A stretch of 64,000 nucleotides of DNA from Maribacter sp. (lineage in GTDB: Bacteria; Bacteroidota; Bacteroidia; Flavobacteriales; Flavobacteriaceae): contig JAHENB010000008.1 of the NCBI GenBank assembly GCA_024643345.1, forward strand, positions 10,949 to 74,948. The letters are read 5' to 3'. The position numbers and the translations under genes were made by a program. How positions within the stretch are numbered: the stretch's first letter is position 1; each line of letters begins with the position of its first letter. Under the pieces are notes generated by a model that saw only the letters and a program-made list of their open reading frames with translations, was not told the origin of the DNA and searched no databases. Of this stretch, positions 5,982-19,754 are shown one piece after another.

Positions 5982-7238
5982 TTACAAAATCATGCCCGCC
6001 GCGACCGTTTCATTGGTACTATCATCAATTAAGATAATACTACCGGTGGTCCTGTTCTCGCGATAGCAATCGTACATCAGTGGTTTTGTGGTTCTTAGGG
6101 TCACTTTACATATATCGTTCATATTCAGGCTGTCATCATCGGTTTTGCTTTTAAGGGTATTGATATCAATTTTGTACAATACTTCCTTGATCATGGCCTT
6201 TTGTTCATTTGAAGTATGCATAATGGTATACTTCGCCCTCGGTCTCGCCGGGTTGTTGTGCAGCCAGCACAGCATCACTTCCATATCCTGTGAAGTTTCC
6301 GGTTTGTTGTTGGAGCGAACGATCATGTCTCCCCTTCCGATATCGATATCATCTTCCAAGGTAATCGCAATTGACATAGGCGCATGTGCCTCCTCCAGCT
6401 CCCCATCGAAGGTATCAATCGATTTTATCTTGGACGTAAAACCGGAAGGCATCACCGTTATCTCATCGCCCAATCTAAAAATACCACTAGCGACCCGTCC
6501 GGCATAGCCCCTATAGTCGAGAAAACCTTCCCTTTGTGGCCTTAATACGGTTTGCACTGGAAATCTGGCGTCTACCTTGTTCAAATCGCTGCTAATGTGC
6601 ATGGTCTCCAAGGTATGCAATAAGGGGGCTCCCTGGTACCAATCCATATTTTCAGATCTATTCACCACATTGTCTCCCAACAAAGCGCTAATGGGGATAA
6701 AGCGAATGTCTTTGATCAAAAATTTTGAAGAAAATTCCTCGAACTGGGAAATGACGTTGTTGTAGGCATCTTCGGTAAAATCTACCAAATCCATCTTGTT
6801 CACGCACACGATGATATGCGGAATTTGCAACAATGAAGCGATAAAGGCATGTCGCTTGGTCTGTTCGATTACCCCGTGCCTTGCATCGACCAAAATAATG
6901 GCCACATTGGCCGTGGAAGCCCCGGTCACCATGTTTCTGGTATATTGAACATGACCTGGGGTATCGGCAATAATAAATTTCCGTTTAGGGGTCGTAAAAT
7001 ATCTATAGGCAACATCAATGGTGATTCCCTGTTCCCGTTCATCGCGCAAACCATCGGTGAACAGGGCCAGGTCGATGCCTTCGTGGCCTCTTCTTTTACT
7101 GGTGTTTTCTATGGAAATCAGCTGATCTTCAAAAATTGATTTGGAATCATATAATAAACGTCCGATGAGCGTGCTTTTTCCGTCATCCACGCTGCCAGCA
7201 GTCGTAAATCGCAAAAGTTGGTTATTATCTATTTTCAT
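5982..7238 (-). CDS. cysN: Sulfate adenylyltransferase subunit 1 (GTPase) CysN
   Basis: 418 residues, EF-Tu-like GTPase that drives ATP sulfurylase: ATP + sulfate to APS + PPi, together with CysD. GTP-binding motifs are clear: GSVDDGKS (15-22), DTPGH and NKMD, followed by beta-barrel domains (GYAGRVASGIFRLGDEITV). The length matches stand-alone CysN, with no fused CysC kinase domain. Last gene of the cysQ-DUF2061-cysC-cysD-cysN operon, 52 bp after cysD. In a setting with sulfotransferases and without cysH or cysIJ, its likely job here is PAPS supply for sulfation. Confidence 0.95.
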   Translation of the reverse strand: MKIDNNQLLRFTTAGSVDDGKSTLIGRLLYDSKSIFEDQLISIENTSKRRGHEGIDLALFTDGLRDEREQGITIDVAYRYFTTPKRKFIIADTPGHVQYTRNMVTGASTANVAIILVDARHGVIEQTKRHAFIASLLQIPHIIVCVNKMDLVDFTEDAYNNVISQFEEFSSKFLIKDIRFIPISALLGDNVVNRSENMDWYQGAPLLHTLETMHISSDLNKVDARFPVQTVLRPQREGFLDYRGYAGRVASGIFRLGDEITVMPSGFTSKIKSIDTFDGELEEAHAPMSIAITLEDDIDIGRGDMIVRSNNKPETSQDMEVMLCWLHNNPARPRAKYTIMHTSNEQKAMIKEVLYKIDINTLKSKTDDDSLNMNDICKVTLRTTKPLMYDCYRENRTTGSIILIDDSTNETVAAGMIL

Positions 7239-7290
7239 ACTTGAAATATTGTAATGTAAAGATCCGTAAACTTAAGAAAGAAAGGCCCCG

Positions 7291-8196
7291 CTAAAAATAA
7301 CCTTGCCTCTTCCTGTCTTCCATGGCAGATTCCGACCGTTTGTCATCAGACCGATTGCCCCGCTCCGTGTTGCGCATAGCGGACACCTCGTCGACAATTT
7401 TTTCCAGGGTATCGGCTTCCGACTCGATACCTCCCGTAATCGTGATATCGCCCAAAGTCCTAAAGCGTATTTTCTTGGACAAAACGGCCTCATTTTCTTC
7501 CAAAACCGTAAATTCGGAATAAGGAATCCAAGAGTTGCTTCTCCAGACCACTTCCCTGATATGGGCATAGTACAATGATGGAATTTCAATTTTTTCCCGT
7601 TTGATGTAGTTCCAAACATCCATTTCCGTCCAGTTACTTATGGGAAAGACCCTAAAATGTTCCCCTTCGAAGTACTTTCCATTAAAAATGTTCCACAATT
7701 CAGGGCGTTGATTTTTGGGGTCCCATTGCCCAAATTCATCACGATGCGAGAAAAATCGTTCTTTGGCCCTGGCCTTTTCTTCATCACGTCTGCCACCTCC
7801 AATGGCACAATCTATCTTGTTATTTTCGATCGCATCCAAAAGTGTGGTTATTTGCAGCGCATTGCGCGTGGCATGCTTTCCCCTTTCTTCCGCCACACGA
7901 CCCTGATCGATGGAATCCTGCACAGAGCCCACCAGAAGTTCAACGCCCAAACTATTGATCAGGTCGTCCCTGAATTTTATGGTTTCCGGGAAATTGTGGC
8001 CCGTATCAACATGCATTAAGGGAAATGGGATCTTGGATGGATAAAACGCCTTTTGTGCCAGATGGGTGACCACGATGGAATCCTTGCCACCCGAAAACAA
8101 AATGACCGGTTTTTGAAATTGTGCCCATACTTCACGTAGAACATAAATGGCTTCAGCCTCCAATTCGTCTAAATAATTTAAATAGTATTTGCTCAT
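7291..8196 (-). CDS. cysD: Sulfate adenylyltransferase subunit 2 CysD
   Basis: 301 residues, PP-loop ATP pyrophosphatase fold that adenylates sulfate in complex with CysN. The PP-loop SGGKDS is at 35-40; MHVDTGHNFPET and GGRRDEEKARAKERFFSHRD are the other signature blocks of the CysD family. The C-terminal tail ERGNRSDDKRSESAMEDRKRQGYF is typical. Its ATG overlaps the cysC stop by 4 bp (ATGA), pointing to translational coupling. PAPS reductase (CysH) shares the PP-loop but lacks the GGRRDEE block, so CysD is secure. Confidence 0.95.
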   Translation of the reverse strand: MSKYYLNYLDELEAEAIYVLREVWAQFQKPVILFSGGKDSIVVTHLAQKAFYPSKIPFPLMHVDTGHNFPETIKFRDDLINSLGVELLVGSVQDSIDQGRVAEERGKHATRNALQITTLLDAIENNKIDCAIGGGRRDEEKARAKERFFSHRDEFGQWDPKNQRPELWNIFNGKYFEGEHFRVFPISNWTEMDVWNYIKREKIEIPSLYYAHIREVVWRSNSWIPYSEFTVLEENEAVLSKKIRFRTLGDITITGGIESEADTLEKIVDEVSAMRNTERGNRSDDKRSESAMEDRKRQGYF

Positions 8197-8789
8197 TTTC
8201 CTACTTGTAGTTTATTCTTGATTTTAGCGTAAATGATTTCCACGGCCTCGCTTACTGAACTTTCCGGTTTGACTTCAACATCAGGGTCTATGGGGGCCTC
8301 GTAGGGCGCCGATATCCCGGTCATGTTCTTTATTTCTCCACGACGGGCCTTTTGGTACAATCCCTTGACATCCCTTCTTTCGCACTCCTCCAAACTGGTA
8401 TTTACGAATATTTCGAAATAGTTATCCGGTTGTACCGTGTTTTTTATAAAATCCCGGTCTTTTTTATATGGGGCAACGAACGCGGCCAAAACCACTAGTC
8501 CTGCATCAATGAATAGTTTGGCTATTTCACCGATTCTTCGGTTATTTTCAGATCTGTCATCTGGTGAAAAACCCAAGTTTCTGTTGATGCCCCTGCGTAC
8601 ATTGTCGCCATCCAAGATATAAGTCTTAATGCCTTCTTCATATAATTTCTCCTCAAGGGCATTGGCTATAGTCGACTTTCCAGAACCAGACAAGCCCGTG
8701 AAAAATATTAAAAAAGAACCATGCCCATTGGCAACGCTTCTTTCCTTTCTGGTTATCTTATAATCATGTTGAACTATATTTTTTTTCAT
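8193..8789 (-). CDS. cysC: Adenylylsulfate (APS) kinase CysC
   Basis: 198 residues. Phosphorylates APS at the 3' position to give PAPS, the universal sulfuryl donor. P-loop GLSGSGKST (32-40), DGDNVRRGINRNLGFSPDDR and the lid region VKGLYQKARRGEIKNMTGI are all present. Stand-alone form rather than a CysNC fusion. It overlaps its neighbours on both sides by 4 bp. Because PAPS is made here with no reductase nearby, and a PAPS-type sulfotransferase lies 5 kb away, it probably feeds sulfation. Confidence 0.95.
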   Translation of the reverse strand: MKKNIVQHDYKITRKERSVANGHGSFLIFFTGLSGSGKSTIANALEEKLYEEGIKTYILDGDNVRRGINRNLGFSPDDRSENNRRIGEIAKLFIDAGLVVLAAFVAPYKKDRDFIKNTVQPDNYFEIFVNTSLEECERRDVKGLYQKARRGEIKNMTGISAPYEAPIDPDVEVKPESSVSEAVEIIYAKIKNKLQVGK

Positions 8790-9202
8790 CCCTTAAATCT
8801 GTGACTTTTTTCCAAACCAAAATCAAATAAATACCATAATCTTTCATGAAAATAATACAATATCATTTTTGTAAGCACTTCCGCCGCTCCTATTTTTAGT
8901 CCCGTGAACGGGTCGCCCGAAATTATCGAAGCCAAAATAAAAGTGTCCAAACTGCCAATAACCCTCCAACTTAATGTTTTCAGCAAATGTCTTTTTTGGC
9001 TATTGGGCAAATTGATCCTAAACCATAAACGCTCATGGAGGTAGTACAGTACCATTTTGGTTGCCACCTCAGAAACTCCAATTTTTAGACCTACCAATGG
9101 ATCTCCGGAAATGATCCATGATAAGATCATGGTATCCAAGGTTCCGATAAATCTCCAGCTTATCGCTTTGGCAACATGTCGTTTACGGGAACGGTCGGAC
9201 AT
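8786..9202 (-). CDS. Tandem-duplicated DUF2061 membrane protein
   Basis: 138 residues made of two near-copies of the DUF2061 unit: KRHVAKAISWRFIGTLDTMI... and KRHLLKTLSWRVIGSLDTFI..., each followed by SGDPxxGLKIGxxEVxTKMxLYYxHERLW. Each repeat holds two hydrophobic helices, so four membrane segments are expected. Function unknown. The gene overlaps cysC by 4 bp and touches cysQ by 1 bp, so it is co-translated with PAPS genes. This association recurs, as far as I recall, in Bacteroidota and suggests a role in sulfate uptake or PAPS metabolism; that is inference. Confidence 0.88.
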   Translation of the reverse strand: MSDRSRKRHVAKAISWRFIGTLDTMILSWIISGDPLVGLKIGVSEVATKMVLYYLHERLWFRINLPNSQKRHLLKTLSWRVIGSLDTFILASIISGDPFTGLKIGAAEVLTKMILYYFHERLWYLFDFGLEKSHRFKG

Positions 9203-9996
9203 TATTTATGGACTAAGAAATAACTGTTCAATAAATTGTTTTTGTTGTACAACAATTCCTTGTTGGTTTCTTTTGATATTACCGAAAGCCCGACCGCTTT
9301 GCAAATAGCATGTCCTGCCGCCGTGTCCCATTCCATGGTAGGGGCAAACCTCGGATAAATGTCCGCTTTGCCTTCTGCCACCAGACAAAATTTCAAGGAA
9401 CTGCCTTTTGAAACAATATCTATTTCCTTATAATTTGATTTTTGATCTTCTATAAAATTCAAAGTATGGTCATTCATATGTGATCGGCTTCCAACCACCC
9501 TCAGCAGATCTTTATGGTCTTCTGTTGGTGAAATCTTATCATGAACGGCGAAAAAGGACCCGTTTGCAAGATGATCGGAGTCCAGCACCGTTTTGTAGGC
9601 ATTTCCCGATGCGACCTCGGCATAGTAAAGTTCCCGGGTCACCGGGACATAAATTACGCCCATTATGGGAACGCCATGTTCGACCATGGCGATGTTTACT
9701 GTGAATTCTCCATTTCTTTTAATAAATTCCTTGGTCCCGTCCAATGGATCCACGATCCAACAAGTTTTCCACTTCTTGCGTTCCGTAAATTCCAGGTTCC
9801 TGTTTTCCTCACTGATGATGGGGATTTCGGTGGCCTGCAAATAATGATTGATGATAGTGTTCGAAGCGGTGTCCGCTTCCGTTAAAGGGGAGTTGTCTTC
9901 TTTAATATCTATTTCAAAATCTTTCTCATAGATTTTAAGAATTTCCTTTCCGGCCTCAATGGCACTTTTAATACTGATAATCAAATGATCGTGCAC
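9202..9996 (-). CDS. cysQ: 3'(2'),5'-bisphosphate nucleotidase CysQ
   Basis: 264 residues, inositol-monophosphatase superfamily. Hydrolyses PAP, the by-product of PAPS-using sulfotransferases, to AMP, relieving product inhibition. Metal-site motifs: EENRN around 64, DPLDGTKEF (83-91), and WDTAAGHAI near the C-terminus. First gene of the minus-strand sulfate-activation operon. Its place here matters because PAP arises both in assimilation and in sulfation, and no reductase genes are beside it. Confidence 0.93.
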   Translation of the reverse strand: MHDHLIISIKSAIEAGKEILKIYEKDFEIDIKEDNSPLTEADTASNTIINHYLQATEIPIISEENRNLEFTERKKWKTCWIVDPLDGTKEFIKRNGEFTVNIAMVEHGVPIMGVIYVPVTRELYYAEVASGNAYKTVLDSDHLANGSFFAVHDKISPTEDHKDLLRVVGSRSHMNDHTLNFIEDQKSNYKEIDIVSKGSSLKFCLVAEGKADIYPRFAPTMEWDTAAGHAICKAVGLSVISKETNKELLYNKNNLLNSYFLVHK

Positions 9997-10359
9997 AGGG
10001 AACTGATTTAGTAGTTGGATGCTGGATTATTCCTTAATACTCTTGAAAACTAATAAAAACTCTTTAAATAACTGACCAAAACCGATGATTTCTTTTTTTG
10101 ATTGTCTTTCAGCGGAGCCAATTTTGTTCAATTAAAAACCAAAACCAAAACGACAGCTTTAAAATAAATTACGGCGATGCCAAGTGTGGGATCCAAGATC
10201 AGTTTTGCCTCGTAAAATTAATCAACATTTATTTAAGTGATTCTATTCAATGTATCGGCAAAAGTATTAACTTGCTATATGTTAAAAGAACTACCGTTCT
10301 TTTATACCTGTTCTCCCCCCTACCTTAAAAAACAAAACCAACCTTTAAAACGCATTGAC
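9997..10359. promoter_or_regulatory. Divergent control region between PAPS operon and ASST genes
   Basis: 363 bp between the cysQ start and the first arylsulfate sulfotransferase start. It must hold promoters for both directions, but I could not fix a convincing -33/-7 pair. A 76-codon frame at 10098-10328 has no recognisable content and is treated as spurious. The region is A/T rich, with no strong hairpin. Confidence 0.5.
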
Positions 10360-12033
10360 ATGAAAAGCCATGTACTTTTTTCTTTAGCCATTATTTTGTT
10401 CCTATCCGTTGCTTGTAAAAATGATAAGCCCGCACAGCAAGAAGCCGAAACCACCGAAATCAGGCAATGGAAGCCCGAAGATACCCGAGCCATTGCCGGC
10501 AACAGGGCTGAACGGGGCTTGATTTCAAAATCAGGATCGGCAACTCCCGGATACGTTTTATTTTCACCCTATACGGGCACCAAAACATTTTTAATGGATA
10601 AAGACGGTAAGATCGTTCATGAATGGAACGGTGAATTGAGCGCCACGCTCAATGGCTACCTTCTTGAAAACGGGCATTTGATCCGGATGGAACGCGATGT
10701 CGATTTTCCAACTTTTGCCGCAGGTGGCGCTGCGGGCAGGTTAAGGGAATATGATTGGGACGGCAATATGGTTTGGGATTTTGAGTATGCCAATGAAAAG
10801 GAATTGATGCATCATGATCTGGAAGTGCTTCCCAATGGTAACATCCTTGCCATTTCATATGAGTTAAAGACGCCAGAAGAGGCCGCGGCTGCCGGTAAAG
10901 ATCCAAATACAATTGCGAAAGCCGGCATTTGGCCCGATAAGATCATCGAAATTAAACCTACTAAACCGTTTGGTGGGGAAATTGTTTGGGAATGGCATAT
11001 GTGGGATCATTTAATCCAGGATTACGACGATTCAAAACCAAATTTCGGGGTGGTGTCGGAACATCCGGAACGGATTGATGTAAATATTAAAAATGATCTT
11101 GATTTTCCGCCAATGCCACCGGAACAGGTGGAAGGAATGAAAAAAGCAGGTATTTTTACATCAAATTTCACTACCGATAACCTTGCTTCCGATATTACCC
11201 ATGTAAATGCGGTAGCTTATCAACCGGAATTAGATCAAATTTCATTCAGCATTAAACATTTTGGAGAGGTATTCATCATAGACCATAGTACTACAACCGA
11301 AGAAGCCAAAGGGAGTGTTGGTGGCAAATGGGGCCATGGAGGCGATTTGTTGTACCGTTGGGGAAATCCTGCAAATTATGGCAGGGGGTCGGAAGCGGAC
11401 CGAAAGCTTTTTAACCAACATGATCTTAAATGGATCCCCAAAGATTACCCCGGTGGCAATAACTTTATAGTATTCAATAATGACATTGCCGATCCGAATA
11501 ACAAGATGCCATCCCCCCTGGGAGCAATGATGGCTACAAGATCGGCAGATCCTGAAGTTTCCATTGCCGATATTGGCAATTATAGCGCTGTTTTTGAAAT
11601 CGCGCTGCCAATGAAAGAGTACGGTGTCTATGATATTCCAAATGCCGGCACCATAGGGCCCTCCGGCCTAGCTTGGGAATATACCTCACCAGATAAATAC
11701 TCGTTTTATTCCCCTATAATGTCTTGTGCCCAGCGCTTGAAAAATGGTAACACCTTAGTTACACAAGGCATCAATGGTCGCATCTTCGAACTTACTCCCG
11801 AAAAGGAAATCGTTTGGGAATATTGGAATCCCTATAAATTTGATTATAAGTTACCAGATGGTGGTGTTGCACAGCCTGGAGGTGCAATTACCCAATATGG
11901 ATTGTTTCGAGCCTTACAATATGATGCGGATTATTCGGCATTCATAGGTAAAAATTTGAAACCCATTGATCCACAACCGGAGCCATTTATCTTTAAAATG
12001 CCACCTCCGCCCTCACAGGATGGTGCACAATAG
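10360..12033 (+). CDS. Arylsulfate sulfotransferase-like lipoprotein (copy 1)
   Basis: 557 residues, ASST-type beta-propeller. Family members move sulfate from one aryl sulfate to another acceptor without PAPS, in the periplasm. The ATG at 10360 (MKSHVLFSLAIILFLSVAC) gives a lipoprotein signal with Cys19; the track's 598-aa start adds a non-coding-looking leader. HHDLEVLPNGN (151-161), THVNAVAY (H281, N283) and NQHDLKWIP (H354) resemble the histidine and His-x-Asn active-site blocks of E. coli-type ASST. The Arg that follows in that enzyme is not evident (SIKHFGEVF). Another periplasmic beta-propeller role remains possible. The next gene is a paralogue of equal length. Confidence 0.78.
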   Translation: MKSHVLFSLAIILFLSVACKNDKPAQQEAETTEIRQWKPEDTRAIAGNRAERGLISKSGSATPGYVLFSPYTGTKTFLMDKDGKIVHEWNGELSATLNGYLLENGHLIRMERDVDFPTFAAGGAAGRLREYDWDGNMVWDFEYANEKELMHHDLEVLPNGNILAISYELKTPEEAAAAGKDPNTIAKAGIWPDKIIEIKPTKPFGGEIVWEWHMWDHLIQDYDDSKPNFGVVSEHPERIDVNIKNDLDFPPMPPEQVEGMKKAGIFTSNFTTDNLASDITHVNAVAYQPELDQISFSIKHFGEVFIIDHSTTTEEAKGSVGGKWGHGGDLLYRWGNPANYGRGSEADRKLFNQHDLKWIPKDYPGGNNFIVFNNDIADPNNKMPSPLGAMMATRSADPEVSIADIGNYSAVFEIALPMKEYGVYDIPNAGTIGPSGLAWEYTSPDKYSFYSPIMSCAQRLKNGNTLVTQGINGRIFELTPEKEIVWEYWNPYKFDYKLPDGGVAQPGGAITQYGLFRALQYDADYSAFIGKNLKPIDPQPEPFIFKMPPPPSQDGAQ

Positions 12034-12255: not shown

Positions 12256-13929
12256 ATGATAAAAATTAAAAATTTATTTCTTTTAGGGCTGCTCATTGGG
12301 AGCCTCTATTCTTGCAAACAGGAGCCTAAACCCGAACCGGTGGCAGCAGCTACCGAAATCAGGCAATGGAAGCCCGAAGATACGCGAAGTTTGTCGGGCA
12401 TAACCGCCAAAAGGGGCCTTATCCTCAACTCCGAAAAGGGCACTCCAGGGTATGTACTTTATGAGCCTGCCAATGGCACTTACACCTATTTGTTGAACAA
12501 GAACGGTGAGGTAGTGCACGTCTGGAACTCCGATCTTAATTCCATGGATTCCTATCTACTGCCCAATGGGCACTTGATCCGTCTTGAACGTGATGAAAAC
12601 TTTCCCACTTTTGCAGCGGGAGGCCAAGCGGGCCGCATCAAAGAATACGATTGGGATGGAAATGTGGTATGGAACTTCAAATACTATAGTGAGAAAGAAT
12701 TGATCCATCACGATATTGAGATCATGCCAAACGGGAACATCTTGGCGATTTCCTATGAAGCATTGACCCCCGAAGAAGCCATTGCCTTGGGCAAAGACCC
12801 TCAACATATTCCCAAAGCGGGTATTTGGCTAGATAAGATCATAGAGGTCCAACCCACCAAACCCGAAGGGGGAAAGATTGTTTGGGAATGGCACATGAAA
12901 GACCATCTTGTGCAGGATTTTGATGAAACCAAAGCCAACTATGGGGTGGTGGCCGAAAATCCAAGAAAGATAAACATCAATACCCCAAGTGGGGAAGCCG
13001 GGCCGCCCATGACGCAAGAACAGATCGACCATATGAAGCGAACAGGCATGACGACCTCCAATGCCACCGTAGACAACCAGGGATCGGATCTTACCCATAC
13101 CAACGCCATATCTTACAACCCAGACTTAGATCAAATTGTGATCAGCGTGCCCGGATTCAGCGAAATATTCGTGGTGGACCATAGCACCTCCACAGCAGAA
13201 GCCAAGGGCAGTTCGGGAGGCCATGCAAAACTTGGGGGAGATTTGCTTTACCGTTGGGGCCATTCAGTGAATTATGGACGGGGCACCGGAGAAAATCAGA
13301 AACTTTTCGGTCAACATGACGTGAAATGGATACCCAAAGGTTATCCCGGGGAAGGAAATCTGATGGTATTCAATAATGATATCCGCAACCCTGATAATAA
13401 ATTGCCATCAATGTGGGCCGCCCTTGGAAAAGCGGGCTCACCCGAAATGAACGTTGCCATCGGCGATATTGGTAATTATAGTGCCATCTATGAATGGGCC
13501 ATTCCCAAAGATGGTGAGGGCAACTATCCCATCATGGAAGGAGGGGCGTTCGGCCCCGATCAACCCGACTGGTCCTACACGGCTCCGGACAAGTATTCTT
13601 TTTATTCAGCCTTTATTTCCGGGGCACATCGTTTAAAAAATGGCCATACCCTGATCACCTCGGGCATGCAAGGGCGCTTTTTTGAAATAGACCAGAACAA
13701 AGAAGTGGTATGGGAATATTGGAACCCCTATAAATACGATTATAAATTGCCGGATGGATCGGTATCACAGCCCGTGGGGCCATTTGTATACGGAATTTTC
13801 AGAAGTACTTTATATCCGGCCGATTTCGAAGCCTTTAAGGGCAAAACCCTGGCCCCGATATCGCCCCAACCCAAACCCTTTATTTTTAAAATGCCACCAC
13901 CACCTGCAGTACAGGATAGTGTTCAATAA
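12256..13929 (+). CDS. Arylsulfate sulfotransferase-like lipoprotein (copy 2)
   Basis: 557 residues, same length as the preceding gene and clearly its paralogue: both have TEIRQWKPEDTR after the signal, the tail PFIFKMPPPP, and matching propeller blades. Lipobox LIGSLYSC. Putative active-site blocks are HHDIEIMPNGN, THTNAISY and GQHDVKWIPKGY, with GAHRLKNGHTLITSGMQGR near the end. Divergence is spread along the protein, so this is an old duplication. It is 35 bp upstream of a cytosolic PAPS-type sulfotransferase gene, suggesting a functional pair: cytosolic donor synthesis and periplasmic transfer. Confidence 0.78.
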   Translation: MIKIKNLFLLGLLIGSLYSCKQEPKPEPVAAATEIRQWKPEDTRSLSGITAKRGLILNSEKGTPGYVLYEPANGTYTYLLNKNGEVVHVWNSDLNSMDSYLLPNGHLIRLERDENFPTFAAGGQAGRIKEYDWDGNVVWNFKYYSEKELIHHDIEIMPNGNILAISYEALTPEEAIALGKDPQHIPKAGIWLDKIIEVQPTKPEGGKIVWEWHMKDHLVQDFDETKANYGVVAENPRKININTPSGEAGPPMTQEQIDHMKRTGMTTSNATVDNQGSDLTHTNAISYNPDLDQIVISVPGFSEIFVVDHSTSTAEAKGSSGGHAKLGGDLLYRWGHSVNYGRGTGENQKLFGQHDVKWIPKGYPGEGNLMVFNNDIRNPDNKLPSMWAALGKAGSPEMNVAIGDIGNYSAIYEWAIPKDGEGNYPIMEGGAFGPDQPDWSYTAPDKYSFYSAFISGAHRLKNGHTLITSGMQGRFFEIDQNKEVVWEYWNPYKYDYKLPDGSVSQPVGPFVYGIFRSTLYPADFEAFKGKTLAPISPQPKPFIFKMPPPPAVQDSVQ

Positions 13930-13964: not shown

Positions 13965-14645
13965 ATGTCTATTAAAATCATTGGTGCAGGATTTCCAAGA
14001 ACCGGTACCACCACCTTAAAAGAATCTTTGGAAACCTTAGGGTACAACCATGTTTACCATATGAAAGAACTTTTGGTAAACCCAGAAAAACTGCATTACT
14101 GGCAAACCTTGTCAGAAACCGGACAAACCGATTGGGAAGCCCTGTATAAGGGTTATGACGCCACGGTCGATTTTCCCGGCTATCCTTGGTATAAGGAACA
14201 TATGGTAAAATATCCCGACGCAAAAGTGATCTTGACCGTGAGGGACTTTGAAGCTTGGTATAAGAGCGTCGATAGCACCGTTTTCAGGGCCGGCCCTCAA
14301 ACCCCTGCCGAAAAAATAAAAATGATGGGCAAGCTGCTGGCCAGTGCCAGGGCGCGAAGGGTAGTCAAATGCATCAAATTCTTTAAAAAGACATTTTTCG
14401 CCAACGAGCTGCAGGGCAAGTTTGAGGATAAGGAATTTGCAAAAAAAATGTGGGAACAGCATATCGCCGATGTGAAAGCCCATGTACCCAAAGACAAATT
14501 ACTGGTCTATGACGTGCGCGACGGTTGGGCGCCCCTTTGCAAGTTTTTGGGAGTAGCGGAACCCGCCGAACCCCTGCCCCATTTGAACAAGAAGGAGAAC
14601 TTTAAGGAAATGCTGCCAAAACTGATGAAAGGAAAAATGGTTTAA
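13965..14645 (+). CDS. PAPS-dependent sulfotransferase (Sulfotransfer_4-like)
   Basis: 226 residues, P-loop sulfotransferase. Transfers the sulfuryl group from PAPS to a hydroxyl or amine, releasing PAP. The 5'-phosphosulfate loop is FPRTGTTTLKESL (residues 10-22), and the 3'-phosphate region is VILTVRDFEAWYKSV with the expected Arg and Ser. No signal peptide, so cytosolic. The acceptor cannot be read from sequence; small phenols, lipids or sugars are all possible in this family. A terminator hairpin follows before the MFS gene. PAP released here would be cleared by CysQ, encoded 4 kb away. Confidence 0.85.
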   Translation: MSIKIIGAGFPRTGTTTLKESLETLGYNHVYHMKELLVNPEKLHYWQTLSETGQTDWEALYKGYDATVDFPGYPWYKEHMVKYPDAKVILTVRDFEAWYKSVDSTVFRAGPQTPAEKIKMMGKLLASARARRVVKCIKFFKKTFFANELQGKFEDKEFAKKMWEQHIADVKAHVPKDKLLVYDVRDGWAPLCKFLGVAEPAEPLPHLNKKENFKEMLPKLMKGKMV

Positions 14646-14676: not shown

Positions 14677-14710
14677 AATGCCCCCATTGGTCAGCATCGG
14701 TGGGGGCATT
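14677..14710 (+). terminator. Terminator after the sulfotransferase gene
   Basis: AATGCCCCCA ... TGGGGGCATT, a 10-bp perfect stem with a 14-nt loop followed by GATTTT. It sits 31 bp after the sulfotransferase stop and upstream of the preferred MFS start. The track's MFS start at 14678 lies inside the left arm, which argues against that start. Confidence 0.75.
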
Positions 14711-14731
14711 GATTTTAAAAACCAACCTCCT

Positions 14732-15889
14732 ATGAATACCGAAAGCTGGCAAGTAAAAGCGACCTTGTTGTTGGTAAGTAGTCTTACCATTATGTCGATG
14801 ATCACGATCTCGGCCTCCCTTCCCGACATGACCAAAACCTTTTCAGGACTACCCAACGGGCCTGCCCTGGTGAAGCTATCCTTATCTTTTCCCGCACTTT
14901 TTATCGCCATCAGTGCCATGGTGGCCGGTATGGTGATCGATAAATTTGGCCGACTTAAATTGTTGGGGGTCGCATTGATACTCTATGCGGTTGGGGGAAG
15001 TTCGGGGTATTGGCTGAACAATCTCTACCTCATCCTGGCAGGAAGGGCCCTCCTGGGAATTTGTGTCGGTATTACCATGACCATTGTGACCACCCTTGTT
15101 GCGGATTATTATCAGGGAAAATCAAGGCAAAAATTTGCAGGTTTACAAATTGCGGTAATGTCTATTGGGGGTATTATTTTTATTACCCTTGGTGGCTTCT
15201 TGGCCGACATCAATTGGCGGGTACCCTTTTTACTGTATTTTTTTTCCATACTTGTTTTACCGGCAACCTATCTGTATCTAAAGGAACCTAAAGAAAGTGT
15301 CAGCGCCCAACGTAAGGATGCCGTCATAAAATCACCTTCCGTCATTTGGGTGGTGTTCTTTAATATTATGTTGATGTGGGTCATGTTTTTTATTATTCCG
15401 GTGCAAATTCCCTTCTATTTGAAAACCATCGGCGTAGAAAAAAATGCCCTGATTGGAATCGCCATTGCTTCAACAACTTTGTTTTCAGCGATTTCCTCCT
15501 TCTCCTTTTCTAGGATCAAAGATAAGTTCAGCTTTCAGCAGATTTTTGGCATCGGCTATCTTTTGATGGCCCTTGGCTTTGGGAGCATTGCCATTGGCAA
15601 CACCTATGCCATGGTCATGTTAGGGATGCTAATGTCCGGTTTGGGAATGGGGCTCATGATCCCCAATGCCAATGTATGGGTAATGCAATTGGCCCCACCT
15701 GAAATAAGGGGCAAGGAAATTGGCCGTTTGACCACTTTTTGGTTCATGGGGCAGTTTATTTCGCCCATTGTGCTGTTACCATTTTTAGAAACCTTTTCAC
15801 ATTCCCAGCTATTTTATTTGCTGGCCGGTATTTTGATGGTATTAAGTGTTTTATTTTTTGGCACCCATTTCTGGTCATCAAAAAAGTAA
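14732..15889 (+). CDS. Major facilitator superfamily transporter
   Basis: About 385 residues with roughly twelve hydrophobic segments. Typical MFS text: the loop 2-3 motif VIDKFGRLKLLG, the motif-C-like run AGRALLGICVGITMTIVTTL in the N-half, and LGMLMSGLGMGLMIPNANVW in the C-half. Start ATG 14732 (MNTESWQVKATLLLVSSLTI) is chosen because upstream codons fall in a terminator hairpin. Substrate unknown; multidrug or small-acid transport is the default for this subfamily. In context it could move a sulfated or desulfated small molecule across the inner membrane. Confidence 0.85.
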   Translation: MNTESWQVKATLLLVSSLTIMSMITISASLPDMTKTFSGLPNGPALVKLSLSFPALFIAISAMVAGMVIDKFGRLKLLGVALILYAVGGSSGYWLNNLYLILAGRALLGICVGITMTIVTTLVADYYQGKSRQKFAGLQIAVMSIGGIIFITLGGFLADINWRVPFLLYFFSILVLPATYLYLKEPKESVSAQRKDAVIKSPSVIWVVFFNIMLMWVMFFIIPVQIPFYLKTIGVEKNALIGIAIASTTLFSAISSFSFSRIKDKFSFQQIFGIGYLLMALGFGSIAIGNTYAMVMLGMLMSGLGMGLMIPNANVWVMQLAPPEIRGKEIGRLTTFWFMGQFISPIVLLPFLETFSHSQLFYLLAGILMVLSVLFFGTHFWSSKK

Positions 15890-16016: not shown

Positions 16017-16547
16017 ATGGATCAAAGGCGCTTACATACAAGTACATTGGAAGAATTATACGGTCAAATCGAGGCCGATATCATAAGACAAGATGAACAT
16101 TTTAGAATTGTTCGCCTAAAAGACCATCAAAGCAAAACGAGAACCTTGGGTGTGGTAAGTTTCTTTGATGTTGATGATGCTGCACTTAAAATTGCCCATC
16201 CAAAAATACTGGCTGGCGGTATGTTGGGCAAAACACTTTTTGATGCATCGGTCGCGTTCGACAAGCAATTAATTGGATCATTTATGGTTAAATTGCCCCT
16301 TTGGGCCAAAAAAGAATTCAAAACGCAAAATGAATTGAGCTTGGTCATTTATTCCAAAATATTGGTTCAAGACAGTACCTCTTTGACCGATCAATTCCTA
16401 TATGCCGAATTAATCGAAATCATTCCTCCCGATTTAACCGCTAAATTTGCAAATAAAACCCAACCATTGCCTATCATCGGTGACGAGTTACTTCGATTGG
16501 TCGATGCCGTTGATTTAAGCATAATCAACCAAATAAAAAAAACATGA
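16017..16547 (+). CDS. Unknown protein coupled to the FMO gene
   Basis: 176 residues, not recognised. No signal peptide or membrane helix. Predicted mixed alpha/beta with a notable stretch HPKILAGGMLGKTLFDASVAF and a later strand-rich half (ELSLVIYSKILVQ, FLYAELIEIIPPDL). The ATG at 16017 is the only reasonable start. Its stop overlaps the FMO start by 4 bp (ATGA), so the two proteins are probably made together and may act together. A small acid-binding or lyase-like fold is conceivable, but I have no firm match. Confidence 0.7.
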   Translation: MDQRRLHTSTLEELYGQIEADIIRQDEHFRIVRLKDHQSKTRTLGVVSFFDVDDAALKIAHPKILAGGMLGKTLFDASVAFDKQLIGSFMVKLPLWAKKEFKTQNELSLVIYSKILVQDSTSLTDQFLYAELIEIIPPDLTAKFANKTQPLPIIGDELLRLVDAVDLSIINQIKKT

Positions 16548-18076
16548 TCAGTTGTATCGTAATAGGAGCAGGACCTGGCGGCATTGTTGCTACCAAAGAA
16601 CTTTTGGAAATAGGGTTCGATGATGTTTTATGTTTAGAACAAGCCAACGGTCTGGGCGGGGTTTTCGCCAAAGGTTATGACAATCTGCAACTGACTTCTT
16701 CGGTAACCTTTAGCATGTTTTCAGATTTTTGGGTCGGAGAAGGCAAAAACCATCATTTCTGGACCAAAGAAGAAGCGGTCGCCTATTGGACCGACTATGC
16801 GATGCATTACGGTGTCCCGGACCATATTCGGTTTGGCGCCAAGGTAACAGCCGTTTCCTCCATTGAAAGCGGTGCTTGGCAAATTGGTCTAGATTCTGGG
16901 GATCAACTGCAGTGCAGGCGCCTGGTTTTGGCGATCGGTAACAACAATGTCCCAAGATTTCCCGATTGGTGCGACAAGCTGACCGATGTTTCTTATTCCC
17001 ATTCCAGGGATTACAAAAATTCCGACCGCTTTAAAGGAAAACGGGTGCTTGTCGTCGGTGGTGGTGAATCGGGTTCGGATGTCGCCTATGAAATTTCGCA
17101 AGTGGCCGAACAGTCCTGGGTAAGTTTAAGGGAATCTACCGGCTGGGTGGTTCCGCGTAAACGTGGCGGTCATGCGGCGGATGTTTCAACTCACCGCGGA
17201 ATTTGGGATTTGCCCCGGGAATATGGGGCCTATTTGAGTCCATTTGTCCTAAAGCTTGAACGTGGCAGAAAGGATCCGGTCTTCGATGCCCTGGCCGATC
17301 TCAACGATAAGGTCCGCGCACGTAATGGCATATGGGGCATTTACGGTACCAAAACCCTGGCTTTGCCCAAGGCCATCGCCAATCACGGATGTAAGGTGGT
17401 GGGAGATATTGTGGATGTAGCGGATGGCGGGCGAAAGCTGAAGACTTCAGATGGTGAAATGTTAAACGACATCGATGCGGTCGTATTCTGCACGGGCTAT
17501 CGCAATAGGGCAGAATTTATGCCGGAAGAACTTCGAGCCTGTGATCCGCGAAAACTTTATAAGCATATGTTCCATCCCGATTATGGTGATCGTATCGCTT
17601 GGATAGGATGGGCCAGACCAGGGTTCGGGAGTCAGTTCCCCATAATGGAAATGCAATCGCGCTATTGCGCCCTTATCTTTAAAGAGGTATTGGCGTTGCC
17701 GGAAACTGGCCAAATGGTACAAATTGCCAAGCAAGATATGGAGGCTTATCAATCGCAATTCGAAGAAAATGCGAATAGGATCCGAAGCTTGGTCGACTAC
17801 CACCGTTTTATGGACGGCCTGGCCAGGATCATCGGGTGCAGGCCCCCTTTGTTCATGTATTTTCTTCGCTATCCAAAACTTTGGTTACACCTTATGTACG
17901 GCCCTACCCAAGCTACACAGTTTAGGTTAAAGGGGCCCGGTAAGAAGTTGGCCTTATCCCATGAAATCATATACAGGTTGCCCATCAGTACTTTCAATCA
18001 TATTGTAAAAGCGGGTTTGCGGGGAAGGGTACGCTATGCCTTTAGGGGCCTATGGCCATCAAGAAATACGATATGA
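16544..18076 (+). CDS. FMO-like flavin monooxygenase / NAD(P)-binding oxidoreductase
   Basis: 510 residues. FAD-binding GAGPGG at 8-13, then SHSRDY and a second nucleotide-binding loop GGGESG at 172-177, and FCTGYRN near the end of the catalytic core: the layout of class B flavin monooxygenases (FMO/BVMO). The FMO signature FxGxxxHxxxY is degenerate here (VSYSHSRDY). These enzymes insert oxygen into N, S or carbonyl substrates using NADPH. An extra C-terminal region of about 80 residues, rich in aromatic and basic residues (FMYFLRYPKLWLHLMYGP), suggests membrane contact. Located between the unknown coupled gene and a sulfatase. Confidence 0.8.
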   Translation: MISCIVIGAGPGGIVATKELLEIGFDDVLCLEQANGLGGVFAKGYDNLQLTSSVTFSMFSDFWVGEGKNHHFWTKEEAVAYWTDYAMHYGVPDHIRFGAKVTAVSSIESGAWQIGLDSGDQLQCRRLVLAIGNNNVPRFPDWCDKLTDVSYSHSRDYKNSDRFKGKRVLVVGGGESGSDVAYEISQVAEQSWVSLRESTGWVVPRKRGGHAADVSTHRGIWDLPREYGAYLSPFVLKLERGRKDPVFDALADLNDKVRARNGIWGIYGTKTLALPKAIANHGCKVVGDIVDVADGGRKLKTSDGEMLNDIDAVVFCTGYRNRAEFMPEELRACDPRKLYKHMFHPDYGDRIAWIGWARPGFGSQFPIMEMQSRYCALIFKEVLALPETGQMVQIAKQDMEAYQSQFEENANRIRSLVDYHRFMDGLARIIGCRPPLFMYFLRYPKLWLHLMYGPTQATQFRLKGPGKKLALSHEIIYRLPISTFNHIVKAGLRGRVRYAFRGLWPSRNTI

Positions 18077-18125: not shown

Positions 18126-19754
18126 ATGAAGACACAATTTGTTCCGAAAGCGCTACTATCATTATTGGTGCTTGGCTTTGCGGGCTGTTCCGGAGCTGCC
18201 TCACCGTCGGCAGATGACCCAAGGCCCAATATCCTGATCTTGGTCGCGGATGATCTCGGTTATGCAGACTTAGGCTGTTATGGTGGCGATATTGCCACGC
18301 CCAATATTGATGCCTTGGCGGCCCGGGGGATCAGATTCAGTAGGTTTCATACCGCACCTATGTGTGCGCCCACAAGGGCAATGCTTTTGACCGGTAATGA
18401 CAACCATATTGCCGGGATGGGTAGACAAAACCTGTCGACTTCCGTATTTGGTTACGAAGGACACTTGACCAATAGGGTGGCCACCATACCGACCTTGCTC
18501 AAACAGGTCGGATATCATACCTATATGGCGGGAAAATGGCACCTTGGCAACCGACCGGAGGACAACCCGCATCACAAAGGTTTTGAAAACTCCTTTGTCT
18601 TGCTCGAAGGGGTTGGAAATCATTACAGCGAACACGAAATTTTTAAGAATGCCCCTGCCTCAATATATACGGAAGATGGGAAAAACACACAATGGCCTGA
18701 AGGCAGTTATTCGACCAACTTCTACACCGATAAACTCATCGCCTATATCGATCAAAATAAGAAAGACCACCAACCTTTTTTTGCCTATGCGGCCTATACC
18801 TCGCCCCATTGGCCGCTGCAGGTCGATAGAAAATATTGGGAGAAATATGAGGGGCGCTTTGACGATGGCTACGACAAACTAAAAGAACAAAGGCTGGAAA
18901 GCCTTAAGAAGGCAGGAATGATACCCTTAGGTGCCACGCTACCTCCAAACCACCCTTCCGTTAGACCATGGGATTCCCTTTCTATTGCCGAAAAGAAAAA
19001 AGAATCGAGAAAAATGGAACTCTATGCGGGGATGGTAGACAATCTGGACGAGAACATCGGTCGAATCATACAGCATTTAAAAGACATCGGCGCCTATGAA
19101 AACACTTTGATCGTCTTTATGTCCGACAATGGGGCGGCGGGAGAGGATTATTACAACGACCCCGATACCAGGGAATCGATTAGCGATTATTATACCGAAG
19201 ATTACAGCATGATGGGGGAAGCCAATTCAATGATTTCCTATGGTTCTGCCTGGGCAGAAGCCGGAACTTCCCCTTTCCGCTATTTCAAAGAGTTTACCAC
19301 CAACGGGGGCATTTTGGCCCCAATGATCATGGCTGGTCCCATGATCACAAGAATAAACGAAGTACATGATGATTTTGTGACCGTGATGGACATTGCCCCA
19401 ACCCTATATGAAGTGGGCAGGGCGAACTACCCCAAAAAACTTGAAGGCAGTACCCTTTATCCCCTAATGGGGACCTCTTTGCTCGCCTTTGCCTCTGGCG
19501 GAACATCGGAAATTCATCATCCTGATTACGTGTTCGGCCTAGAACACTCGGGCTATACCATGCTCAAGAAAGGGCAATGGAAAATAACCAATACCAGCTA
19601 TCCGTTCTCAGAAGCGAATTTCGAGCTCTACGATCTTTCCGATGACCTCGCAGAGCGGCACGATCTAAAAGAACGCGCGCCGGAAAAGTACTTGGAACTT
19701 TTAAAGGAATGGTCGGCTTACTCAGATAACATGCGGTTGCAACTTCCTAGATAG
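18126..19754 (+). CDS. Arylsulfatase-family lipoprotein (S1 sulfatase)
   Basis: About 542 residues. S1 sulfatases hydrolyse sulfate esters using a Cys converted to formylglycine. The motif C-A-P-T-R at 80-84 (MCAPTRAMLLTG) and the metal site LVADDLGYADLG are intact, with SDNG in the C-half. The ATG at 18126 starts a lipoprotein signal (LVLGFAGC, Cys21); the track's 18036 start overlaps the FMO gene. It ends with NMRLQLPR. Substrate class cannot be assigned by eye. It could reverse the sulfation done by the upstream genes or scavenge aryl sulfates. A candidate maturase is encoded at 36-37 kb. Confidence 0.9.
   Translation: MKTQFVPKALLSLLVLGFAGCSGAASPSADDPRPNILILVADDLGYADLGCYGGDIATPNIDALAARGIRFSRFHTAPMCAPTRAMLLTGNDNHIAGMGRQNLSTSVFGYEGHLTNRVATIPTLLKQVGYHTYMAGKWHLGNRPEDNPHHKGFENSFVLLEGVGNHYSEHEIFKNAPASIYTEDGKNTQWPEGSYSTNFYTDKLIAYIDQNKKDHQPFFAYAAYTSPHWPLQVDRKYWEKYEGRFDDGYDKLKEQRLESLKKAGMIPLGATLPPNHPSVRPWDSLSIAEKKKESRKMELYAGMVDNLDENIGRIIQHLKDIGAYENTLIVFMSDNGAAGEDYYNDPDTRESISDYYTEDYSMMGEANSMISYGSAWAEAGTSPFRYFKEFTTNGGILAPMIMAGPMITRINEVHDDFVTVMDIAPTLYEVGRANYPKKLEGSTLYPLMGTSLLAFASGGTSEIHHPDYVFGLEHSGYTMLKKGQWKITNTSYPFSEANFELYDLSDDLAERHDLKERAPEKYLELLKEWSAYSDNMRLQLPR

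Follow-up and report, generated by a model that had tools for sequence, protein, structure and literature searches.

U176, a 176-aa protein of Maribacter sp., and the FMO-like enzyme encoded directly behind it form a dedicated two-gene unit, and the link of this pair to sulfation is well supported. The genes, their coupling, their conservation and their co-occurrence with a set of sulfotransferase, exporter and ASST genes were observed, and the fold of U176 was predicted. The preferred reading, which was given a probability of roughly 0.36, is that the pair makes a phenol that is sulfated inside the cell, exported, and used outside as the donor of the ASSTs. What is new here is the unassigned U176 family, the fact that it is strictly coupled to a single FMO subfamily, and its link to a flavobacterial two-step sulfation core. 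ASSTs, PAPS-dependent sulfotransferases, FMOs, the chorismate-lyase fold and two-step sulfation were already known. Coordinates are those of the window, the whole stretch of 64,000 nucleotides that was analysed (Table 1).

Table 1. Features of the sulfation locus and of the U176-FMO pair in the window.
Feature	Position	Strand	Basis and remarks
PAPS supply: CysN, CysD, CysC, DUF2061 membrane protein, CysQ-like phosphatase	5982..9996	-	Pfam
Second ASST, likely start 10360	10360..12033	+	PF05935 4.5e-22; N-terminal lipoprotein signal (LFLSVAC)
ASST	12256..13929	+	PF05935 7.7e-26; N-terminal lipoprotein-like signal (LIGSLYSC)
PAPS-dependent sulfotransferase (Sulfotransfer_4)	13965..14645	+	PF17784 7e-65; no apparent signal peptide
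MFS transporter, proposed exporter of sulfated small molecule	14678..15889	+	PF07690 3.5e-45
U176, cytosolic protein	16017..16547	+	176-aa ORF; predicted chorismate-lyase/UTRA (DUF98-like) fold
FMO-like class B flavin monooxygenase	16544..18076	+	510 aa; PF00743 3.4e-51, full length; ATGA-coupled to U176
S1-type sulfatase	18126..19754	+	PF00884 6.8e-60; lipoprotein-like signal (LGFAGC), CAPTR active-site motif

Genes on the plus strand follow in the order two ASSTs, sulfotransferase, MFS transporter, U176, FMO and sulfatase. With the PAPS-supply genes nearby, the surroundings of the pair are those of the sulfate-ester locus that an earlier note had described, and the ATGA overlap that it reported between the two ORFs (region 16544-16547) was found as described. 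A sulfatase of 62% identity also lies 3' of the FMO in Muriicola. Two listed starts are probably too early, 18036 for the sulfatase and 10237 for the second ASST; the starts used here give clear lipoprotein signals. The DUF2061 gene (8786-9202, minus strand) stands between cysC and cysQ, and occupies the same place in G070 (L075). Promoter and terminator scans gave results at or below shuffled expectation.

Nothing above the curated cut-offs of Pfam or NCBIfam was obtained for U176, and no match was accepted for the 14 family members; the protein, which the earlier note could not assign, continues to resist assignment by these libraries. Weak matches to DUF4704, YbaJ and YscK were discounted, each being confined to a single family member, and the sole PDB sequence match of the family profile (ParB, E 0.05) was taken as chance. 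U176 is more than a chance ORF, because relatives at 32-48% identity in other genera keep the gene order. Close relatives were found in ten contigs by a scan of an 84,980-genome collection, labelled as Muriicola, Eudoraea, Maribacter, other Flavobacteriaceae, Bacteroidetes and one Chlorobiota-labelled MAG; several of these contigs come from genomes that also gave a relative in a sample of 400 genomes of the family. No additional relative was found with the U176 family profile among 237 sampled genomes of the class. Residues invariant in the family alignment (14/14 sequences) include R42, G67, G71, K83 and E134, and an LHT motif is present in the FMO-coupled family.

Distant U176-like domains occur in proteins of 220-250 aa (L006, 9773-10441; L026, 9690-10400; L028, L029, L030), some with lipoprotein-like N-termini and in unrelated contexts. 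The two of these that were aligned retain R42, G67, G71 and E134. A U176-like protein of 26% identity is encoded without an FMO in L025 (9820-10314, G269), beside DNA-methylase-like, RadC-like, ITPase-like and mobile-element-like genes; this region may be a mobile or defence island.

The FMO gene stands directly after U176 in all 11 close loci (the ten contigs and the window), the two genes overlapping by 4-8 nt or lying 1-4 nt apart. The adjacent FMO orthologues are 72-75% identical where scored; the copy in L036 is cut (incomplete). In the 400-genome sample, U176 relatives (E <= 4.4e-36) and FMOs of the pair type (E <= 1e-100 and at least 72% identity) were found in an identical set of six genomes. 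The earlier note had reasoned that its proposal would fall if U176 were found mainly apart from the FMO, and every close locus was paired. One further FMO was returned by the family search, 54% identical and behind a different, unassigned ORF of 177 aa (L050, G027; ORF 8428-8961, FMO 8972-10489; also L087, G702). These two genes adjoin flippase-like and glycosyltransferase-like genes, in a genome without the sulfotransferase of the window type. By eye the 177-aa ORF has a RESS..IPFGKLL..RELFVP pattern that is UbiC-like around the Arg and Glu motifs. HHalign and shuffled local alignment detected no similarity between it and U176. Its model (pLDDT 35, from an alignment of only two sequences) was unusable, and the UbiC likeness was not counted.

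The FMO carries the dinucleotide motifs GAGPGG at 8 and GGGESG at 172, each of the GxGxxG type, and its closest solved structures are animal-type, reconstructed animal FMOs. In place of the fingerprint FxGxxxHxxx(Y/F) it has TDVSYSHSRDY (TxVxxxHxxxY), with His and Tyr retained and Phe and Gly replaced. An unusual aromatic and basic C-terminal extension had been ascribed to this enzyme. The final 80 residues do hold 17 basic, 1 acidic and 12 aromatic residues, but residues 5 to 468, including an FGPxxPxQxRLxGPGK stretch, align with ordinary animal-type FMOs. The special extension was therefore dismissed except for the last ~42 residues, which lie outside that alignment and are conserved in the subfamily (LPISTYNHIVKAGLRGR).

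The AlphaFold2 model of U176, built from a 14-sequence alignment, had a pLDDT of 90.1 and a pTM of 0.86. Foldseek against the PDB returned 2NWI (AF1396, DUF98) as the top match (E 1.6e-5, probability 1.00, TM 0.54/0.59); over the chains of this entry E went down to 1.6e-5 and TM ranged over 0.51-0.59. UTRA effector-binding domains of GntR/HutC regulators ranked next (2p19, PhnF, DasR, YvoA). UTRA domains and the chorismate lyase UbiC have a common fold (PMC4918961), and because of this and the DUF98 and UTRA matches U176 was placed, as a prediction, in the chorismate-lyase superfamily fold, nearest the DUF98 branch. The profiles PF04345 and PF01947 had no match in the whole genome or among the 14 family members, PF01947 was not found in 248 genomes of the phylum, and U176 scored at chance level against UbiC both with hhalign and in local alignment with shuffled controls. 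With sequence and profile tests against UbiC and DUF98 at chance, U176 was not filed under either family. A clear match to an unrelated housekeeping family, which would have told against the earlier note, was not found by sequence, and the fold resembles the chorismate-lyase family.

The product of UbiC is held by R76, on a strand that precedes two helices, and by E155, on the final strand. In the predicted U176 model R42 likewise lies on the strand ahead of two helices, and E134 is on the final strand, which suggests that these residues match R76 and E155 topologically, by the order of elements only. R42 and E134 are also conserved in the distant secreted-lipoprotein homologues, and the residue argument is weakened because such proteins, hardly able to meet chorismate, keep both.

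The same data bear on a different role for U176, doubtful in itself and yet nearly as likely as the carrier-making reading, namely that it is a non-enzymatic small-molecule-binding partner of the FMO. It would deliver the substrate, protect a reactive product or regulate the oxygenase, and the FMO alone would modify an aromatic that is later sulfated. UTRA domains, which have the same fold, bind ligands and are not enzymes (PMC4918961), the secreted homologues share invariant residues with U176, and U176 evolves fast beside a constant FMO, as is often so for binding or adaptor subunits. Against this, the nearest structure belongs to the DUF98, chorismate-lyase branch rather than to UTRA, and the invariant charged residues R42, K83 and E134, together with the LHT motif seen in the FMO-coupled proteins, point to a binding site for a particular ligand.

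Sulfotransferases of the window type (Sulfotransfer_4) were found in 18 of the 400 family genomes, and all six genomes with a complete pair, in five of five genera, were among them. Hypergeometric values for this co-occurrence were 3e-9 by genome and 3e-7 by genus, computed with shared descent ignored and to be read as a guide only. The order sulfotransferase-MFS-U176-FMO was seen in four further loci (L033, L034, L035, L036) as in the window; in MAR_2010_72 (L039) the order is ASST, ASST, U176, FMO, ASST, sulfotransferase, MFS. The genes for ASST, sulfotransferase and MFS remain together in Eudoraea and Muriicola, where the pair is found at another place in the genome. The ASST-sulfotransferase-MFS core was also present in further genomes without the pair, so the pair supplements this core without being a constant component of it. 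A decayed, truncated copy of U176 (MKYEDLHTYSVEKLFGSIRLNVLRQD..., followed by a stop codon) was found in G225 (L027, about 9236-9340, minus strand), directly beside the MFS and sulfotransferase genes, and no FMO of the pair type was found in that genome. This looks like a loss of both pair genes beside a retained sulfotransferase-MFS core.

Across L071-L080, ASST, Sulfotransfer_4 and MFS genes form a recurrent Flavobacteriaceae block, also without U176 and FMO. The blocks of L075 and L076 are linked to cysQ and cysC, and that of L076 also to cysD and cysN. In L079 and L080 a ~515 aa lipoprotein, weakly ASST-like, accompanies sulfotransferases of 52-56% identity.

The earlier note had proposed that the pair may make or modify the sulfation carrier or acceptor, and had advised a search for the pair with and without sulfotransferases. 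The strict pairing and the sulfotransferase present in every complete-pair genome of the 400-genome sample agree with that proposal. The association did not hold in reverse, with 12 of the 18 sulfotransferase genomes lacking the pair, so the pair cannot be the only source of a carrier. The 54% identical FMO with its coupled 177-aa partner, in a genome without the sulfotransferase, was also counted against the carrier reading.

From these data we infer the following scheme, which extends to catalysis by U176 and its substrate, to what the FMO does, to which way transport runs, and to which phenol is made and serves as ASST donor. U176, folded like chorismate lyase, would bind a small aromatic acid, whether derived from chorismate or not, and would most likely form a phenol of the 4-hydroxybenzoate type; the best-known member of the chorismate-lyase family makes 4-hydroxybenzoate, so the predicted fold would fit a protein that makes the carrier. 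The phenol would then be oxidised by the coupled FMO. None of the known enzymes that convert 4-hydroxybenzoate to hydroquinone is a class B FMO, so this step is without clear precedent. The PAPS-dependent sulfotransferase would sulfate the phenol in the cytosol. As this enzyme has no apparent signal peptide and the ASSTs are lipoprotein-like, a small sulfated molecule would need to cross the membrane, and the MFS protein, whose gene adjoins the sulfotransferase gene in most loci inspected, is the obvious exporter. Outside, the surface-anchored ASSTs would take the aryl sulfate as the sulfate donor for an external acceptor, with the sulfatase perhaps recycling or trimming the ester.

It is distinctly unlikely that the pair instead makes or oxidises the final product for sulfation, a secreted sulfated metabolite and not a reusable carrier, with the ASSTs and the sulfatase acting on this product or competing for it. 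Since the core also occurs without the pair, there must be another carrier, and a specific acceptor could be what the pair contributes; in addition, a sulfatase follows the FMO in two genera; however, the pair can be far from the ASSTs, as in Eudoraea, and it is accompanied by no other biosynthetic genes. Least probable is that the pair is an aromatic-metabolism or detoxification unit unrelated to sulfation, co-occurring with it through shared ancestry and marine habitat: the pair stands alone in Eudoraea, and the 54% identical FMO and its 177-aa gene lie near flippase and glycosyltransferase genes, but in several genera, and in two different arrangements, the pair adjoins genes for a sulfotransferase, an MFS protein or an ASST; it also co-occurs with the sulfotransferase in six of six genomes and appears to have been lost beside a retained sulfotransferase-MFS core in G225.

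That the pair is a dedicated module for a diffusible, chorismate-derived phenolic sulfate carrier is a tentative claim, put on the unlikely side. If it were true, the locus would encode a complete route from cytosolic PAPS to the transfer of sulfate at the surface of the cell, and a natural donor would be revealed for bacterial ASSTs that do not belong to antibiotic clusters. A 2026 review counts more than 40 years without an identified natural ASST substrate and credits caprazamycin Cpz4 with an established role (PMC13426309). Natural ASST donors being largely unknown (PMC13426309), the locus is worth an experiment. Its PAPS supply, cytosolic sulfotransferase, exporter, surface ASSTs and candidate carrier pair are a small gene set for a direct donor search, and a testable function is offered for a protein family without a Pfam or NCBIfam name.

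Among known systems, animal and bacterial class B FMOs (PF00743) share with the FMO of the pair the full-length match, both dinucleotide motifs and the GPGK stretch near the C-terminus; the present enzyme differs from them in its degenerate fingerprint and its subfamily-conserved basic tail. DUF98/Rv2949c-like proteins and UbiC (PF01947, PF04345) resemble U176 in predicted fold, in the order of strands and helices and in size, and appear to have an invariant Arg and Glu at corresponding topological places. Sequence or profile similarity to U176 was not detectable, and their contexts are ubiquinone, plastoquinone or phenolic glycolipid synthesis, whereas that of U176 is an FMO and sulfation. 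UTRA domains of GntR/HutC regulators belong to the same fold superfamily; unlike those regulators U176 is without a DNA-binding domain and is coupled to an enzyme, and the UTRA structural match is weaker than that to DUF98.

For the locus as a whole the comparison is with caprazamycin, in which the PAPS-dependent sulfotransferase Cpz8 sulfates a triketide pyrone and the ASST Cpz4 uses the resulting aryl sulfate as donor (PMC4257720, PMC6731281). The carrier of that system comes from a type III PKS, whereas no type III PKS and no antibiotic cluster were seen at the present locus. A PKS-made carrier was considered for the present system as well; a PKS-III-type model matched unlinked genes in four of five genomes, but in G032, where the full locus is present, its match was no more than weak. 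The U176-FMO pair is, by this analogy, a candidate replacement for carrier synthesis by a PKS. The present locus differs further in its MFS transporter, its lipoprotein ASSTs, its sulfatase, and its protein of predicted chorismate-lyase fold with an FMO. As in caprazamycin two-step sulfation, a PAPS-dependent sulfotransferase and an ASST are encoded together, and a phenolic carrier would link them.
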